Positions 22,115-35,692 of a stretch of 64,000 bases of DNA are shown here, piece by piece. A model generated the notes under the pieces. The model was not told the DNA's origin, searched no databases, and saw nothing but the letters and a program-made list of their open reading frames with translations. The stretch is from Shewanella maritima. Lineage in GTDB: Bacteria > Pseudomonadota > Gammaproteobacteria > Enterobacterales > Shewanellaceae. The position numbers and the translations under genes are program-made. Location of the stretch: the NCBI RefSeq assembly GCF_004295345.1, contig NZ_CP036200.1:2248501-2312500 (forward strand). Reading direction: 5' to 3'. Within the stretch, counting starts at the first letter, position 1. Every line of letters begins with the position of its first letter.

Positions 22115-23095
22115 TTAGCCACCAATGGACGCCAAATGTTGCGTCACACCAGTCACTCCTTGATGTAAGAAATGAGTTTCTTTTTTCTGCTCAAGCTGAC
22201 CATGTAGACGCTCAATAAGCTCAGGTCGTTGACTTGCATCTTGCAATAAATCGCGCAGGTCAAGGCCATTTTCAGTAAACAGGCATAAATGCAGCTTACC
22301 TTTTGCCGAAACCCGCAGGCGATTACATGAAGCGCAGAAGTTCTTTTCATAGGGCATGATAAGGCCAATGCGACCTTGATAGTCACCATGGCTAAAGTTT
22401 TGCGCTGGGCCGTCATCAACTCGTGGCAAATCGAACAACCAGCCTTGTTGCTCAAGCTGCTTCTTAATATCGATGCCCGATAAATGATGTTCCTGGAAAT
22501 AGTCGTGACCCAGACCCGTTTCCATCAGCTCGATAAAGCGCAAATCAATTGGCGTGTGCTTAATCCAGTCTAAAAACTTAGGTAAGTCTTTATCGTTAAG
22601 GCCTTTAAGCAATACAGCGTTAACTTTAATACGCTCAAAACCGGCTTCTAACGCCGCATCGATACCACGCATCACTTCGTCGAATTTATTCTCGCCAGTG
22701 ATCTGATAAAACATTTTCGGGTCAAGGCTATCAACTGAGACATTAATGCGGCGCAAACCAGCGTCATACCATTCTTTAGCGTGCTTGGCTAAACGGTAAC
22801 CATTAGTGGTGGTTGCAACAGTTTTAATATTAGGAGTATCAGCAACAACACGAATGATGTCAGTGAAATCCTTACGCAATGAAGGTTCACCACCAGTAAT
22901 GCGGATTTTTTGCGTGCCTACTTCAGAAAAGGCGGCAACCAGATTTTCAATCTCATTGAGAGATAAAAACTTAGGTTTACCATCAGGGCGATAACCATCA
23001 GGAAGGCAGTAAGTGCATTTGAAGTTACATACGTCAGTGACTGACATGCGCAGATAATGAAATCTACGACCAAAATTATCTTGTAGTTGGGACAT
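22115..23095 (-). CDS. moaA: GTP 3',8-cyclase MoaA (radical SAM)
   Basis: A 326-residue radical SAM enzyme with two 4Fe-4S clusters that starts molybdopterin synthesis from GTP. The N-terminal cluster motif is CNFKCTYC (about residue 22), with [12 protein letters not shown] following. The C-terminal cluster is in [19 protein letters not shown]. The protein ends in Gly-Gly, needed for activity in this family. The frame is open to 23140, but ATG 23095 gives the expected [16 protein letters not shown] start and has GGAAAGG just upstream. It is the first gene of a seven-gene molybdenum unit, with a structured leader upstream. Confidence 0.96.
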
Positions 23096-23107
23096 GTTAA
23101 CCTTTCC

Positions 23108-23212
23108 AAGTGCGGGAGGTGAGTGCATTTCTTTACCCACCCCGGTGGCATCATTACCACGGCTAGCATCCCATATCTGTGGACGTAGGGATGAAAGCTC
23201 GGAGAACCGTCA
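23108..23212 (-). promoter_or_regulatory. Moco RNA motif-like leader of moaA
   Basis: The minus-strand leader has CTCCGAGC near its 5' end and CACTCACCTCCCGC just before the moaA ribosome-binding site, which resemble what I recall of the Moco RNA motif upstream of moaA. Pairings seen: ACGG/CCGT closing (plus 23207-23210 with 23159-23162), ATCCC/GGGAT inside it (23188-23192 with 23168-23172), and a GTGG/CCAC hairpin at 23145-23160. A molybdenum-cofactor-sensing role is inferred from this resemblance and from the genes controlled. A covariance-model search would decide. Confidence 0.6.
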
Positions 23213-23370
23213 TGTCTAATTATAGGCAGATTTTTTGCCCAACCAATACCCCTTTAGCTCAAATTTTCACTTTTGATCACACTACTGTTAACTATTTGTG
23301 ACTCATATCAACAGTGGCAGATTGTTTTTTCCGCTGTGACACAGCGCAATTTTACGGTAAGGTTAATAAC

Positions 23371-27383: not shown

Positions 27384-28142
27384 TTAATGGTCGTGAGCTG
27401 GAAGCTGATAATTAGTAATGGTTTTAACCAATACTGAATCTAATTTTGGTTTACCTTGAGGCCCATATAAACGCATATCCCATGGTTCAATACTCCCCAT
27501 ATCCAAGCGATTTTGCAGGCTATTAACCCAGCTTTGCGCGAGTCCATCACTATCGAGCAATCTTTGGTATTGATTGGCATCAAACTGAGGCAAAAAGTAA
27601 ATTCGCATAGCCTCAGCTAGGCTGATATCACTGCGGCGCTCTATAAGCTCCATACTGTCAGACTTATCAATGGTGCCGGCTTCAATCACCTTATAGAACC
27701 AACCACACAAGGCTGTTTCTTGCATAGCTAGAGCAAACTGTGGCTGATTAAATTGTAGGTTTAACTTAAAACATGGCGAGCGCGGCTGTGTCACCTGCAA
27801 CACCACATCACCAAATCGCACAATATCACCAATATTTACCTGCGCTTCATTGACGCCTACGGTTGAAATATTTTCGCCCATGGTCGGGGCGTCTCGCACT
27901 CCAGAAATTAAATCCCAACGGCGATACTGACCATAATGCTCGCGAGGAAAATGGTGGATCACCCGGTCAACACCACCATGGTGCTTAGGATCGGCTTCGC
28001 CATTACCTTGAATACGTTCATGAGTAACAATTAGCTGTTTTGCAGGACGCTTTTGATTGATTGTGGTGCTTACACCATCATGATTATCTTGCTTATCACC
28101 GAGATACAGCCCAGATAATCGACTCACTAATTGCTTACTCAC
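27384..28142 (-). CDS. MOSC domain protein, YiiM-like
   Basis: A 252-residue protein with an N-terminal MOSC domain: IQGNGEADPKHHGGVDRVIH, FPREHYGQYRRWD, APTMGENISTVG, and VTQPRSPCFKLN with the conserved cysteine expected to bind molybdenum cofactor. The C-terminal part (about 165-225) fits the three-helix domain of YiiM-type proteins. YiiM of E. coli reduces N-hydroxylated compounds using Moco and an electron-transfer partner; the same activity is inferred here. The start is GTG at 28142 with GGGAG upstream. It adds a further Moco consumer to a Moco-rich window. Confidence 0.85.
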   Translation of the reverse strand: MSKQLVSRLSGLYLGDKQDNHDGVSTTINQKRPAKQLIVTHERIQGNGEADPKHHGGVDRVIHHFPREHYGQYRRWDLISGVRDAPTMGENISTVGVNEAQVNIGDIVRFGDVVLQVTQPRSPCFKLNLQFNQPQFALAMQETALCGWFYKVIEAGTIDKSDSMELIERRSDISLAEAMRIYFLPQFDANQYQRLLDSDGLAQSWVNSLQNRLDMGSIEPWDMRLYGPQGKPKLDSVLVKTITNYQLPAHDH

Positions 28143-28238
28143 AGCTTGCTCCCTTTATTGTGTTTTCAGAGGTGAAATCTTGCGAACATAGGTATGCCCC
28201 CTGAACAATGTGAGGCTCAATATACTGGAAAATCGCTC

Positions 28239-28270
28239 AAAAAAAAGCCCCGTGAATAATCACAGGGCTG
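28239..28270 (-). terminator. Intrinsic terminator of the candidate sRNA
   Basis: On the minus strand, CAGCCCTGTG/CACGGGGCT forms a stem with one mismatch around a 5-6 nt loop (28247-28269), followed by eight T (plus A-run 28239-28246). It is well over 280 bp from the end of the PfkB gene, which suggests it serves the RNA between them. Confidence 0.88.
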
Positions 28271-28430
28271 TAAATCACTATTACGACTTAACAGCTGGGC
28301 ATATTAATCTATACCGAGCTCTTAAAAGAAGGGAGTTGCGAGAAGCCTAGTTAACTAGCCCGAGTATAGGATAACTGCAACAACAGTTATGGGGAGCCTG
28401 CCTCTGCTAGCCTCAGCATCTTCTAAAGCA
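28239..28430 (-). ncRNA. Candidate phosphate-regulated small RNA
   Basis: A transcription unit of about 190 nt in the 410-bp gap between the MOSC and PfkB genes. Reading the minus strand: PHO box at 28452-28469, 10 nt, -10 TACTAT (plus 28436-28441), predicted start near 28430, end at an intrinsic terminator with eight U (28239-28246). Inside are a perfect hairpin ATAACTG-TTGTTG-CAGTTAT and a longer pairing CTATAC.../...GTATAG. The only ORFs are of about 10 codons or fewer without ribosome-binding sites. It does not match 6S, tmRNA, RNase P or Spot 42 as I know them. Existence is inferred from the promoter-terminator pair. Confidence 0.65.
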
Positions 28431-28451
28431 CGGGCATAGTAAAGTGTTCAG

Positions 28452-28469
28452 ATGACAGCTAGATGACAG
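28452..28469 (-). promoter_or_regulatory. PHO box (PhoB binding site)
   Basis: Minus strand CTGTCATCTAGCTGTCAT: two perfect 7-bp CTGTCAT direct repeats with 4-bp spacing, 11 bp apart start to start, the established PhoB site layout. A -10 (TACTAT) begins exactly 10 nt downstream, the spacing expected when the PHO box replaces the -35 element. Confidence 0.8.
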
Positions 28470-28552
28470 TAAGTTGGCAGTTTTATTAGGCGTTTAGGTG
28501 CAAATACCCAAGATCTTGCCCGTATCCAAAGCTGTAGCAACTTTCGGTTGGA

Positions 28553-29413
28553 TTAAATAGCCGGTCGAGTTTCTAGGTAATCCAGTAGATCTTCGCCCGG
28601 TACCGAGCTTTGTGTTGCCACAGCAAAACTTGCCCAAACTGCAGCCTGTTGCATAGCTACCTTTATGTCTGCGCCATTAATTAAACTATCGATCAACCCT
28701 GCAGCATATGCATCACCCGCACCTGTGGTATCCACAACCTCAGCGGGCATGGCACTTACCTTGATAGGTTCACCATCATGATAAGCCGTCGCGCCATTCT
28801 CACCATCGGTCACCACAAAATACCGCAACGCTTTACCCGCTATGCTTTGTCCAAACACCCAGAAGTCATCACTACAACGCTCCTGCATATCAGCAAGAGA
28901 TGCCACTAACACATGACAAGGCAACGGCTCATTACTGCTACTTAATTGGGCAACTACCACACACTCAGGATTCTGCTCGATAGCCGCTTGCGACCATACA
29001 TGCGGATCTTTAGCACAAGAGTTTATGTAAAAACCTTGCCACTTATGCCATTTGGGCTGTTTTGGTAAGTGAAATTCAGGGCGACGCGAGCGGATAATAG
29101 TGCGCTCACCATCTGGCGTCATGACCAATAGCATTTCACTGGTATGGCCTTGATAACGTTGCACCATACGGCAATCTAGACCTAAAGTGCCAGCTTGTGC
29201 CAGTACCCAGTCCCCTAAGTCATCGCTACCAACTTGCGCCACTATCGATACATCATGCTGCGCCCATACTAGTCCTAGACCAGTATTCGCACCGCCGCCA
29301 CCTAAGCGCAGTCCACCATCTTCGTAGTGGAAACGCCCGCCAGTTTGCAAGGGTTTGTCTAATTGCAAAATACGGTCGCAATTGATGTTCGCTAGTAAAA
29401 GAATGTTCGCCAT
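28553..29413 (-). CDS. PfkB-family sugar kinase
   Basis: A 286-residue ribokinase-like kinase. The N-terminal sugar-binding region LRLGGGGANTGLGLVWAQ and the C-terminal ATP-binding, catalytic signature VVDTTGAGDAYAAGLID (catalytic Asp in GAGD, about residue 235) are intact, along with VVTDGENGATAYHDG. Length is at the short end for PfkB kinases. The substrate cannot be told from sequence; no sugar transport or catabolic gene lies beside it. The start codon (ATG 29413) lacks a clear Shine-Dalgarno. It ends just upstream of the PHO-box promoter. Confidence 0.88.
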   Translation of the reverse strand: MANILLLANINCDRILQLDKPLQTGGRFHYEDGGLRLGGGGANTGLGLVWAQHDVSIVAQVGSDDLGDWVLAQAGTLGLDCRMVQRYQGHTSEMLLVMTPDGERTIIRSRRPEFHLPKQPKWHKWQGFYINSCAKDPHVWSQAAIEQNPECVVVAQLSSSNEPLPCHVLVASLADMQERCSDDFWVFGQSIAGKALRYFVVTDGENGATAYHDGEPIKVSAMPAEVVDTTGAGDAYAAGLIDSLINGADIKVAMQQAAVWASFAVATQSSVPGEDLLDYLETRPAI

Positions 29414-31196: not shown

Positions 31197-32165
31197 TTAC
31201 TCTTTGTATTTTAACGTGCCGTTCTCTTTGATTTCATCATACCAAAGGTTGTGGTGTTGCTTTGCCCACTGCTCATCACAGTAACCAGAAACCATACACT
31301 CCATACCACCTTCAGACATAACTGTTGCCATGAAGATATGTACGATAGAGAAAGCAGTAATCACGATTGCGCTCACTGAGTGCAATACTAGTGCAATTAA
31401 GCTTAGTGTGCGGCTTGGTTCAAACAAGTTAGGGAATAATAGCAACATACCTGATGCTGAGATAACTAGGCCAAAGAAGGCAAATGCCCAGAACCATAAT
31501 TTCTCACCCGCGTTAGCAAAACCTGCGTCAGGGTGCTTACCTTTAAATGGACCAAAGTTAATGTAGCCACCAACGTACATCATCCACTTAAGGTCGTACA
31601 TTTTTGGTAGCTGGTTTTTAGCCCAAAGTAGCGTCATTAATGCCCAACCTAGCATGAACGGAATCGCCATGTAGTCGTGGATTAATTTCGCAGAGTTGAT
31701 TAAACCGGCCCATAAACCTTCTCCAACGTACGGCTGCAGGAAGAAGCGACCCGCTAGCAAAGTTAAACCCGTTAGGATTAACAGCAAACAAGGGATAGCA
31801 CCCAACCAGTGAATCGATACGTCGAACTTAGACCAACGATAAACTAACTTGCCTGTGAAACCACCGTGCAGTTTAGAGATACCATTGATTTTGATAAACA
31901 CCACAAAGACGATGATCATGCCGAACAGTGCAGCGGTTAATGCCGGAGCAAGTAAGTCGCTACGTAGCTCGAACACGCGTAAATCATAAGTGTTGATCAG
32001 CTGTTCGTGAGCTTGACCATGAGATGTGGTTACGCCTTTGGCACCCTCTTTAACTTGGGCCCAAATTTGTCCTTCAGTCTCTGTCGCTGTATTTGTGTCA
32101 GCCATGCTTACACCGCTAAATAGCAAGGTGATAGCAACGCTTAACATAATAAATAAATTTTTCAT
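31197..32165 (-). CDS. fdhC: Formate dehydrogenase cytochrome b subunit (set 1)
   Basis: A 322-residue inner-membrane diheme cytochrome b that takes electrons from FdhB to the quinone pool. A signal-like N-terminal helix (MKNLFIMLSVAITLLFSGVSMA) is followed by a periplasmic stretch, one helix (about 72-92, LTAALFGMIIVFVVFI), and the four-helix core. Candidate heme ligands: His in FDVSIHWLGAIPCLL, LIHDYMAIPFMLGW, and ALVLHSVSAIVITAFSIVHIF. C-terminal VMSEGGMECMVSGYCDEQWA is shared with set 2. FdhA1 and FdhB1 genes lie upstream in the same operon; this is the last gene before the terminator. Confidence 0.92.
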   Translation of the reverse strand: MKNLFIMLSVAITLLFSGVSMADTNTATETEGQIWAQVKEGAKGVTTSHGQAHEQLINTYDLRVFELRSDLLAPALTAALFGMIIVFVVFIKINGISKLHGGFTGKLVYRWSKFDVSIHWLGAIPCLLLILTGLTLLAGRFFLQPYVGEGLWAGLINSAKLIHDYMAIPFMLGWALMTLLWAKNQLPKMYDLKWMMYVGGYINFGPFKGKHPDAGFANAGEKLWFWAFAFFGLVISASGMLLLFPNLFEPSRTLSLIALVLHSVSAIVITAFSIVHIFMATVMSEGGMECMVSGYCDEQWAKQHHNLWYDEIKENGTLKYKE

Positions 32166-32237
32166 GTTACATCCTTCTGGCTCACTAGGCGCTGCAAGCA
32201 GCGCCTAGATTAATCGGACTAACTCAGGATGTGAGGA

Positions 32238-32807
32238 TTAACCCCAAATCGCCTTGTTAGAGCCACGAGAAGCAACACGCTCACGGAAGATGTTAGAAAC
32301 AACTTCTGCATCACCAGCAAGCAGTGCTTTAGTCGCACAAAGCTCAGCACACATAGGTAGCTTACCTTCGGCGATACGGTTAGCACCGTATTGCTTACGC
32401 TCTTTGTCAGAGTGGTTCTCTTCTGGGCCACCGGCACAGAAAGTACACTTGTCCATCTTGCCACGGCCGCCAAATACTGACTTTTGTGGGAACTGTGGAG
32501 CACCGAATGGACATGCATAGAAGCAGTAACCACAACCGATACAAGTGTCTTTGTCGTGAAGTACGATGCCATCTTCTGTTTTATAGAAACAGTTTGCTGG
32601 ACATACAGCCATACAAGGCGCATCACTACAGTGCATACATGCAACTGAGATAGATGCTTCACCAGGCTTACCGTCGTTAATCGTCACTACGCGACGACGT
32701 TGAATACCCCACTCTAGTGCAGAGTCGTTTTCGTTCTTACATGCTGTGACACAGCCATTACATTCGATGCAGCGCTTGGTATCACATAAAAATTTCATTG
32801 TAGCCAT
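32238..32807 (-). CDS. fdhB: Formate dehydrogenase 4Fe-4S subunit (set 1)
   Basis: A 189-residue electron-transfer subunit with four clusters. Visible cysteine groups: CDTKRCIECNGCVTACKNE, CMHCSDAPCMAVCPANC, CIGCGYCFYACPFGAP, and the split CTFCAGGP...CAELCATKAL. Electrons pass from FdhA to the cytochrome b. It has no signal peptide, consistent with co-export on the Tat signal of FdhA. Compared with its paralogue at 37462-38058 it stops right after AIWG and lacks the last nine residues (YNPKTGEMI), because TAA stands where the other has TAC. It lies between fdhA and fdhC. Confidence 0.94.
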   Translation of the reverse strand: MATMKFLCDTKRCIECNGCVTACKNENDSALEWGIQRRRVVTINDGKPGEASISVACMHCSDAPCMAVCPANCFYKTEDGIVLHDKDTCIGCGYCFYACPFGAPQFPQKSVFGGRGKMDKCTFCAGGPEENHSDKERKQYGANRIAEGKLPMCAELCATKALLAGDAEVVSNIFRERVASRGSNKAIWG

Positions 32808-32836
32808 ATTGGCAATTCTCCTAGCTTAATCTGCAA

Positions 32837-35692
32837 CTATGCTTTGGTGATTTGACAAAGCGATGCTTTGGTTTCTTGCATCTGCGTGATTGGGTCATAA
32901 CCGTAAGTTAGAGCCGTGTTCGCAGATTCACCTAGAACATAAGGTACAGTGCCTTCTGGGTAGTTAGGCGCTAAGCTTTCACCGTGCATTTCACCTGCGA
33001 AGTGGTATGGCATCCAAGTAACGCCTGGTTTAACACGAGGTGTAACCATAGCTTTAATCTTAATGCGACCACCTTCTGCACCCTCTAGCCATACTGTGTC
33101 ACCGTTACGGATACCGCGATCAGCAGCATCAGCAGGGTTGATTTCAACAAACATTTCTTGTTGAAGCTCAGCTAGCCATGGGTTAGAACGTGATTCTTCA
33201 CCACCACCCTCGTACTCAACTAGACGACCAGAAGTAAGACCTAGTGGGTACTTATCTGTGTTGTCATTGTCTTGAATAGTCTTGTACAGAGTAGGCAGAC
33301 GATGAATTTGCATATCATCGTAAGTTGGGTACTTAGATACAAGGTCACGACGAGGCGTGTATAGCGGCTCGCGGTGTACAGGTACTTGGTCAGGGAAAGT
33401 CCAAACAATACAACGAGCTTTTGCGTTACCGTAAGGGATACAACCGTGCTTCATAGCAACACGTTGGATACCACCTGAGATATCAGTCTTCCAGTTTTTG
33501 CCTTCTGCATGTACTTTCTCTTCTGCAGTTAGCTCGTCCCACCAACCTAGCTGTTTCAGCATGTCAGCAGTGAATTCTGGGTAACCGTCTTGGATTTCAG
33601 CACCTTTAGAGAAGCTGCCTTCAGCAAGTAGGTTCTTACCTTGATACTCGATACCGTAACGCGCACGGAAGTTACCGCCGCCTTCAAGTACGTGCTTGTT
33701 TGTGTTGTACAGAATTTGAGTACCAGGGTGCTTCTGCTCTGGTGTACCCCAACATGGCCAAGGCATACCGTAAGTATCGCCTTTAGCAGGACCACCCGCA
33801 GCTTCAAGAGTCTTGTTGCTGAAAGTACCCCAGTTTTGAGTGTGTTGCTTGATACGCTCAGGGCTTTGACCTGTCATACCGATTGTCCACATACCGCGGT
33901 TGATTTCGCGAGTAATGTCTTCAATCACTAGCATGTCTTTGCTGTCTTTAGCGATACGCTTAGTGTACTCGTCAGCAAAGCCAAGCTTTTGCGACAGACG
34001 GTACATGATCTCTAAGTCAGTCTTAGATTCAAATAGTGGCTCAACCACTTTTTCACGCCATTGTTGGCTACGACCTGAGTTAGATACTGAACCTTCAGTT
34101 TCGAACTGAGTACAAGCAGGAAGTAGGTAAACACCATTTTGACGACGGTGCATTACACCCGCCATTGTTGGGAATGGGTCCACAACAACTACTGTATCCA
34201 TCTTGTCTAGTGCATCACGAACGTCTGACTGACGAGTTTCAGTGTTAACTGATTGACCCCAGAAGAAGCCCATGCGAACGCGGTCTTTCTGCGCTAGTTT
34301 TTCAGGTGTTTCTAGTACACCGTCATGCCAACGAGAACATGGAATACCAGGCGTGTTCATTGGGATACGACCTAGGTATTCGTTTTGGTCGAAACGACCT
34401 TTAACCCAGTCAAATTCTAGATCCCAAACGTTTGACCAGTGCTTCCAAGAACCGGTCTTAAGACCGTAGTAACCTGGTAGCGTGTCAAATAGTAGACCTA
34501 AGTCAGTTGCACCCTGTACGTTATCATGACCACGGAAGATGTTAGTACCGCCACCTTGTTTACCCATGTTACCTAGAGCAAGCTGAAGGATACAGTAAGC
34601 ACGAGTGTTAGCATTACCAACGTGGTGCTGAGTACCACCCATACACCATACAACCGTACCTGGACGGTTTTCAGCCATTAACTTAGCTGCTTGGTATACT
34701 TCTTCTTCGCTACAACCTGTGATGTCTGCAACTTCTTTAGGTGGGAACTTTTTCACTTCCTCGCGGATGGCATCCATTTCGAATACACGTTGCTCGATGA
34801 AAGTTTTGTCTTCCCAACCATTTTCGAAGATATGCCATAACATACCGTAGATGAATGGAATGTCAGTACCAGGACGTAGACCACAGTGAAGGTCTGCGTG
34901 AGCTGCTGTACGAGAGTAACGTGGATCTACCACGATAATCTTAGCGTTGTTCTTCTCTTTCGCGATCAGAATGTGCTGCATTGCTACTGGGTGAGCTTCA
35001 GCCGGGTTAGCACCGATGAAGAAAATAGCATTGGCATTTTGAATGTCGTTGAAAGAGTTAGTTTGCGCACCGTAACCCCAAGTGTTAGCAACACCGGCTA
35101 CAGTGGTAGAGTGACAAATACGTGCAGAGTGGTCGACGTTGTTCGTACCCCACATTGCCGCAAATTTACGGTACATGTAGCAGCCTTCGTTCGAGAACTT
35201 AGCACTACCCATGAAGTATAAAGAGTCTGGACCTGATTCTTTGCGGATGTCTAACATCTTGTCGCCAACTTCGTTGAAAGCTTGCTCCCAAGATAGTTTC
35301 TTCCACTTACCGTCTACCAATTTCATTGGGTATTTAAGACGTTTCTCACCGTGACCGTGCTCACGTAGCGCAGCACCTTTTGCACAGTGACCACCAGCGT
35401 TGAATGGGTGATCGAATGCAGGCTCTTGACCAGTCCATACACCGTTTTGTACTTCAGCGTATAAACCACAACCTACAGCACATGCAGAACAAACGGTACG
35501 TTTGATTTCAATTGGCGCATCGTGCGGTACATCTTTCGCTTCTGCACGGCGCATCATGCCAGTGCCTAACATTGAAGCGGCAGCGATACCACCAGTGGTA
35601 ACACCCACTTGCTTCATAAATTGACGACGGTTAATGCCTAAGCTTGCTGTTTTAGCTTCTGTGGCCGTCGCAGACTTACGAGTTAGTTTCAT
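32837..35692 (-). CDS. fdhA: Formate dehydrogenase catalytic subunit, cysteine type (set 1)
   Basis: A 951-residue molybdopterin enzyme that oxidises formate to CO2 in the periplasm. It has a Tat signal (INRRQFMKQVG, about residue 20) ending near RRAEAKD. The N-terminal 4Fe-4S motif is CSACAVGCGLYAE; the active site is ARICHSTTVAG with cysteine (about residue 194) in place of the selenocysteine of E. coli enzymes, followed by the conserved His. No in-frame TGA occurs, so it is not a selenoprotein. Molybdopterin-binding landmarks include WCMGGTQHHVGNANTRAYCI. AGGAGAAT precedes the ATG. It is a close paralogue of the protein at 38087-40936. Confidence 0.96.
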   Translation of the reverse strand: MKLTRKSATATEAKTASLGINRRQFMKQVGVTTGGIAAASMLGTGMMRRAEAKDVPHDAPIEIKRTVCSACAVGCGLYAEVQNGVWTGQEPAFDHPFNAGGHCAKGAALREHGHGEKRLKYPMKLVDGKWKKLSWEQAFNEVGDKMLDIRKESGPDSLYFMGSAKFSNEGCYMYRKFAAMWGTNNVDHSARICHSTTVAGVANTWGYGAQTNSFNDIQNANAIFFIGANPAEAHPVAMQHILIAKEKNNAKIIVVDPRYSRTAAHADLHCGLRPGTDIPFIYGMLWHIFENGWEDKTFIEQRVFEMDAIREEVKKFPPKEVADITGCSEEEVYQAAKLMAENRPGTVVWCMGGTQHHVGNANTRAYCILQLALGNMGKQGGGTNIFRGHDNVQGATDLGLLFDTLPGYYGLKTGSWKHWSNVWDLEFDWVKGRFDQNEYLGRIPMNTPGIPCSRWHDGVLETPEKLAQKDRVRMGFFWGQSVNTETRQSDVRDALDKMDTVVVVDPFPTMAGVMHRRQNGVYLLPACTQFETEGSVSNSGRSQQWREKVVEPLFESKTDLEIMYRLSQKLGFADEYTKRIAKDSKDMLVIEDITREINRGMWTIGMTGQSPERIKQHTQNWGTFSNKTLEAAGGPAKGDTYGMPWPCWGTPEQKHPGTQILYNTNKHVLEGGGNFRARYGIEYQGKNLLAEGSFSKGAEIQDGYPEFTADMLKQLGWWDELTAEEKVHAEGKNWKTDISGGIQRVAMKHGCIPYGNAKARCIVWTFPDQVPVHREPLYTPRRDLVSKYPTYDDMQIHRLPTLYKTIQDNDNTDKYPLGLTSGRLVEYEGGGEESRSNPWLAELQQEMFVEINPADAADRGIRNGDTVWLEGAEGGRIKIKAMVTPRVKPGVTWMPYHFAGEMHGESLAPNYPEGTVPYVLGESANTALTYGYDPITQMQETKASLCQITKA

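Follow-up and report, generated by a model that had tools for sequence, protein, structure and literature searches.

The 64,000-nt stretch of the Shewanella maritima genome analyzed here (the window) carries, behind a pfkB-family kinase gene, what is probably an autonomous PhoB-activated small RNA (sRNA) gene of the Pho regulon, whose transcript would repress mRNAs at their Shine-Dalgarno (SD) regions. Comparison with other Shewanella genomes reveals a putative promoter architecture, a predicted terminator, the recurrence of both at one locus of the genus and a C/U-rich word within otherwise variable RNA bodies. The RNA is absent from Rfam and from the literature searched, which comprised open-licence papers. 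The features of the locus and its surroundings are the following.

28553..29413, minus strand: pfkB-family kinase gene, the constant upstream neighbor, matched in 129/129 genomes
28452..28469, minus strand: PHO box, two CTGTCAT repeats 4 bp apart (CTGTCAT 28469-28463, CTAG 28462-28459, CTGTCAT 28458-28452)
28436..28441, minus strand: −10 hexamer TACTAT, downstream of the PHO box by exactly 10 nt (gap 28451-28442)
28239..28428, minus strand: predicted small RNA of about 190 nt, with a presumed start 7 nt downstream of the −10 hexamer
28391..28396, minus strand: CUCCCC, first candidate anti-SD motif (mean unpaired probability of CUCCC, 0.8)
28371..28390, minus strand: ATAACTG/CAGTTAT hairpin (arms 28390-28384 and 28377-28371)
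28324..28336, minus strand: ACUCCCUUCUUUU, second candidate C/U-rich pairing motif (CUCCC unpaired, 0.47)
28239..28269, minus strand: intrinsic terminator, a 10-pair stem (28269-28246) followed by a T-run to 28239
27384..28142, minus strand: gene of a MOSC/YiiM protein, the downstream neighbor, 97 nt beyond the terminator and not constant in relatives

The first-pass annotation of this DNA had read two CTGTCAT repeats with 4-bp spacing and a TACTAT hexamer 10 nt downstream, and all of these elements are in place. PhoB promoters of E. coli do without a normal −35 element and keep 10 nt between the PHO box and the −10 hexamer; a PhoB-activated promoter is defined by two CTGTCAT-like repeats, 11 bp in register, located 10 nt above the −10. 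This is the arrangement found in the sequence of the window locus, where the box scores 14/14 against the PHO-box consensus used for our 14-position score. If up to two mismatches are allowed, the window contains a single copy of the full promoter pattern (0.02 expected); the strict pattern occurs twice in the 4.72-Mb genome (4,718,011 bases, one contig), with 0 occurrences of the reversed control. The second strict site precedes a gene encoding a PBP_like_2 domain, with 98 nt between the first base of the box and the start codon; from its sequence, we take this gene to be pstS. PhoB is itself encoded in this genome (TIGR02154, 371 bits vs a cut-off of 296.2), by a gene that ends about 1.7 kb before the PHO box of the pstS-like gene. 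We infer that PhoB drives the RNA in the cell. One-mismatch PHO-box patterns were also observed elsewhere in the genome, ahead of frames of the phosphorylase (L203, 3104553) and PAP2 (L204, 3142422) superfamilies.

Downstream of the promoter, no sense ORF of at least 20 aa was found inside 28428-28239, in agreement with the earlier claim of some 190 nt devoid of a credible ORF, and the terminator stem with its U-run, also proposed earlier, was recovered as a 10-pair structure (hairpin dG = −17.4). The locus thus displays the attributes used to recognize an sRNA gene, that is, an own promoter, an intrinsic terminator and no ORF of this minimal length. A simple terminator scan of the surrounding 2 kb detected 1 site vs 2.1 in shuffled sequences, so the terminator by itself is not beyond chance, unlike its place and its recurrence in relatives. 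The 190-nt RNA folded better than 200/200 shuffles (z −3.5), and with 8 more bases 2/200 shuffles folded as well (z −2.7). The perfect ATAACTG/CAGTTAT hairpin singled out by the first-pass annotation is present in the window, but no counterpart was found in relatives. Very short frames occur in any RNA this long; it is nonetheless highly improbable that the transcript encodes a small PhoB-induced protein, given the missing ORF, the single-base insertions and deletions that shift frames in the largest clade (by eye), and the lengths and starts that vary between clades.

BLAST of a 242-base stretch against 60 relatives returned, besides the query, a single 30-base match, which lies in another family outside the genus (E 2.5e-4). 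In 129 Shewanella genomes it returned the query and short matches in the 128 others, the two best at E 9.9e-4, and none of the short matches listed within the genus lies behind pfkB. The BLAST result by itself would have suggested an orphan. Rfam (4227 families) yielded no match to this RNA at gathering score for either the window stretch or 20 loci of relatives, bearing out the initial impression that the sequence resembles no known RNA family. Sub-threshold Rfam matches, among them Spot 42 and anti-hemB, were set aside as terminator-like. Spot 42 (RF00021) is an sRNA with an intrinsic terminator, and a weak match to it spans 28238-28368; its 24.1 bits are, however, far below the gathering score of 80 bits, and a better candidate at another locus of the same genome reaches 75.1 bits, itself just under threshold. 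That the RNA is a divergent Spot 42 is hardly credible at all.

At E 1e-10, every one of the 129 Shewanella genomes has a single match to the pfkB-family kinase, and the DNA behind this match was read in all of them (30 loci and 99 stretches). A PHO-box match of at least 10/14 ahead of a TAnnnT hexamer was identified in 95/129 genomes, the spacing being exactly 10 nt in 94 of them and 11 nt in the other, in a scoring that gave one preference point to the 10-nt spacing. A fixed-spacing scan of 300 bases behind pfkB, with no such preference, likewise retrieved 95/129 genomes at 10 nt, whereas under the same criteria the other spacings from 5 to 15 nt gave 0-7, the antisense strand 1, the region 450-750 further on 0, and promoter shuffles a mean of 0.35 with a maximum of 4. 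At a threshold of at least 12/14, the pattern persisted in 59 genomes vs 0-4 at other spacings and 0 on the antisense strand, in the further-on region and in shuffles. These genomes are related, and the counts are not independent events. Conservation of the PHO box in relatives had been set beforehand as a test of the first-pass reading, and it was passed, with the promoter behind pfkB in 95/129 genomes and the terminator in 90/129.

The remaining 34/129 genomes fail the promoter criteria. The S. corallii locus carries a box of 11/14, a CATAAT hexamer and a GC-rich hairpin; some of these 34 genomes may thus have a weaker form of the unit, which would make 95 a lower bound. In a sample of the order, the kinase is encoded in 38/197 genomes and 6/79 genera. 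A PHO box of at least 10/14 with TAnnnT at 10 nt occurred in 0/17 of the pfkB loci read outside the genus (of 25 kinase matches); 5/17 had a box scoring 10-11 but no hexamer.

A terminator, defined in an energy scan as a hairpin of −7.5 kcal/mol or lower plus a T-run at 30-230 nt from the presumed start, was found in 90/95 promoter-bearing loci, compared with 8 in shuffles and 3 on the antisense strand. This count depends on the method, a stem scan giving 78/95 and a second scan 80/95. The five genomes lacking an energy-scan terminator (G004, G077, G090, G091 and G135) were left out of the 90, and four of them show a stem in the stem scan. Terminators are common behind pfkB, since 14/34 promoterless genomes also have one, 60-350 nt after the gene. 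Compensatory changes, with both partners of at least one pair of the terminator stem replaced, occur in 7/10 aligned clades, which were placed by eye and comprise 81/95 genomes. For these alignments, three of four too-short RNAs were extended (not that of G098), two tandem RNAs were cut at the first terminator, and a length of 89 nt was assigned manually to the RNA of G077. The energy scan stopped prematurely at a weak hairpin in certain genomes, rendering some of the 90 RNAs too short in the cluster and motif counts reported below. RNA length has a median of 96.5 nt, with most between 70 and 140 nt; the 190-nt window copy is among the three longest, and the other two (G068 and G100) are tandem pairs. 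In another Shewanella genome (G106), the RNA is predicted near 4,648,286-4,648,190 on the minus strand, with a length of about 97 nt. In G098 (L044), the usual terminator was not recovered behind pfkB, and a transposase-like frame on the opposite strand comes next; the sRNA seems shortened there, probably by an insertion.

Alternatively, instead of an independent RNA, promoter and terminator could specify an attenuator-bearing 5' leader of the downstream gene, driven by PhoB. The next long frame lies on the same strand in 87/95 genomes (opposite in 6/95, unclear in 2/95), and the MOSC gene of the window begins 97 nt after the terminator, as listed above. The larger downstream cluster, of 44 genes, encodes Cache and GGDEF domains, as judged by the one member scanned (L075), and perfect PHO boxes precede an EAL-GGDEF protein in three other genomes (L067, L070 and L073; domains scanned in the first two). 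The latter boxes hint at a phosphate link to cyclic-di-GMP, and a leader, if true, would tie phosphate to this messenger wherever the next gene encodes the Cache-GGDEF protein. However, the gene after the terminator is not constant across the 95 genomes, where a MOSC-like cluster accounts for 38 cases, the Cache-GGDEF cluster for 44, and others, including GNAT-like genes, for the rest. Of the six opposite-strand cases, a single cluster accounts for three and a transposase-like insertion for a fourth. For this RNA in the window and in the 20 loci of relatives, Rfam contributed no known leader at threshold.

Tandem copies also speak against the leader. A second PHO box (11-14/14) follows the first terminator in 6/95 genomes (G005 L151, G063 L103, G068 L152, G080 L144, G084 L135 and G100 L160) vs 0 in the control region, its start ranging from 2 nt ahead of the end of the first RNA to 38 nt past it. 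The TAnnnT hexamer was found in 0/6 of these second units, five having a CATGAT-like hexamer and that of G063 reading CCTAAT. In each second unit, the box is followed by a T-tailed hairpin (−10.8 to −14.1 kcal/mol) and, as judged by eye, by a C-rich stretch. Tandem units are not readily explained by a leader of the downstream gene, but are by an sRNA gene. Collectively, the variable next gene and the tandem copies support independence from the neighboring gene, and we regard the leader as improbable.

Sorting of the 90 RNAs into 32 sequence clusters indicates that the bodies diverge fast. Because the body is so variable, homology of the putative units rests on position and architecture, and the manner in which the RNA appears to be conserved is unusual. 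The words [CU]UCCC or CUUCC nevertheless occur in 78/90 bodies (22 in shuffles, maximum 33) and in 25/32 cluster representatives (7.8 in shuffles, maximum 14), while the reversed control words CCCUC/CCUUC/CCCUU occur in 32/90 and GGGAG-type words in 5/90. After correction of the RNA ends, the motif is present in 81/90. Within the bodies its unpaired probability is 0.69 vs 0.54 for other body 5-mers, and it exceeds that of its own body in 59/81 genomes; an earlier value of 0.78 vs 0.54 had included terminator loops on the motif side and was corrected to 0.69. Other all-pyrimidine 5-mers reach 0.73 and are equally exposed, so exposure is not special to the motif. Because this control proved as exposed as the motif, we slightly lowered our confidence in the sRNA explanation and in the genus-wide reading given below, and slightly raised that in the leader and in a mechanism other than SD pairing.

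The CUCCC/CUUCC word is complementary to ribosome-binding sites, and for this reason we propose an anti-SD mechanism. RsaE/RoxS and the rhizobial CCUCCUCCC RNAs are C-rich anti-SD sRNAs with a C/U-rich motif complementary to ribosome-binding sites. The present RNA differs from them by its putative PhoB promoter, and none of the loci read outside the genus has its unit; homology was compared via Rfam. A search of six genomes with the pattern AAATGGGAG-N3-9-ATG returned 20 matches vs 25 for the reversed control. In the own genome, AAGGGAGT-N3-9-ATG returned 13 matches vs 4 for the control, an excess that an SD-like word would give anyway. Three matches fell ahead of one amidotransferase frame (G085, G092 and G112), presumably component-II-like, with no recurrence in the other three genomes searched.

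A real PhoB-driven RNA could also act through a mechanism other than SD pairing, such as protein binding or service as an sRNA sponge. Such a role would suit the strong folding of the window copy, a motif no more exposed than other pyrimidine stretches, and pattern searches that could not show targets. Against it, the C/U-rich word recurs far above shuffles, and C-rich words of this kind are also present in the terminator hairpins of 37/90 RNAs; we deem a non-SD role unlikely. The preferred reading, an sRNA acting at SD regions, would operate as follows. When phosphate is scarce, phosphorylated PhoB would bind the PHO box and recruit sigma-70 polymerase to the −10, and a short RNA would be made, its transcription ending at the intrinsic terminator. 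Hfq, which is encoded in the genome, might then bind the RNA at the 3' U tract in which it is predicted to end. On some mRNAs, the CUCCC/CUUCC word could pair with ribosome-binding sites of the GGAG type, and such pairing would lower their translation during phosphate starvation, much as RyhB does for iron. The first-pass reading that phosphate starvation induces a small regulatory RNA here is supported, with induction and regulation as what the locus suggests.

The nearest functional parallel met in the genus, by analogy, is RyhB of S. oneidensis, described in PMC5826389 as a short regulatory RNA that responds to scarcity of a single nutrient through a dedicated regulator and for which Hfq is stated to be necessary. 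There, the pair is Fur and iron, whereas here it would be PhoB and phosphate, and the present RNA has no Rfam match to RyhB at threshold. In other bacteria, PhoB-controlled sRNAs have been reported, one of them disputed (PMC10294691 and PMC8829014). EsrL of E. coli was described as a PhoB-bound, phosphate-linked sRNA (Jia et al. 2023, as cited in PMC10294691), but that E. coli PhoB-mapping paper did not detect PhoB binding at esrL in K-12; EsrL is likened to our RNA by description, as a PhoB-linked sRNA of another organism. PMC8829014 further mentions a PhoB-induced, Hfq-linked sRNA that acts on rpoS in E. coli, together with numerous phosphate-responsive sRNAs of Sinorhizobium meliloti; these resemble the present RNA, again by description, in changing under phosphate limitation, and belong to other organisms. 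For Shewanella, no PhoB-controlled sRNA was found in the open-licence papers searched, and the main text of an S. piezotolerans sRNA prediction (PMC5471319) makes no mention of pfkB.

More tentatively, and as a possibility rather than a probability, the locus might represent a genus-wide 'RyhB of phosphorus', that is, one PhoB-induced sRNA locus behind pfkB that is duplicated in some genomes, that keeps its promoter, terminator and anti-SD word despite an almost unconstrained turnover of its body, and that would shut off phosphorus-costly or dispensable proteins in phosphate starvation. A locus kept by position and architecture, and hardly by sequence, illustrates how genes of this kind can escape homology catalogues.

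Two further observations concern the minus strand of the window. A Molybdenum cofactor riboswitch (RF01055, 91.7 bits) at 23083-23216 overlaps the start of a MoaA-like frame (23140-22115; Mob_synth_C and Radical_SAM domains), whose true start probably lies further in than 23140. At 31197-35692, frames with cytochrome b561, 4Fe-4S and molybdopterin-oxidoreductase domains form what we take to be a formate-dehydrogenase-like operon.
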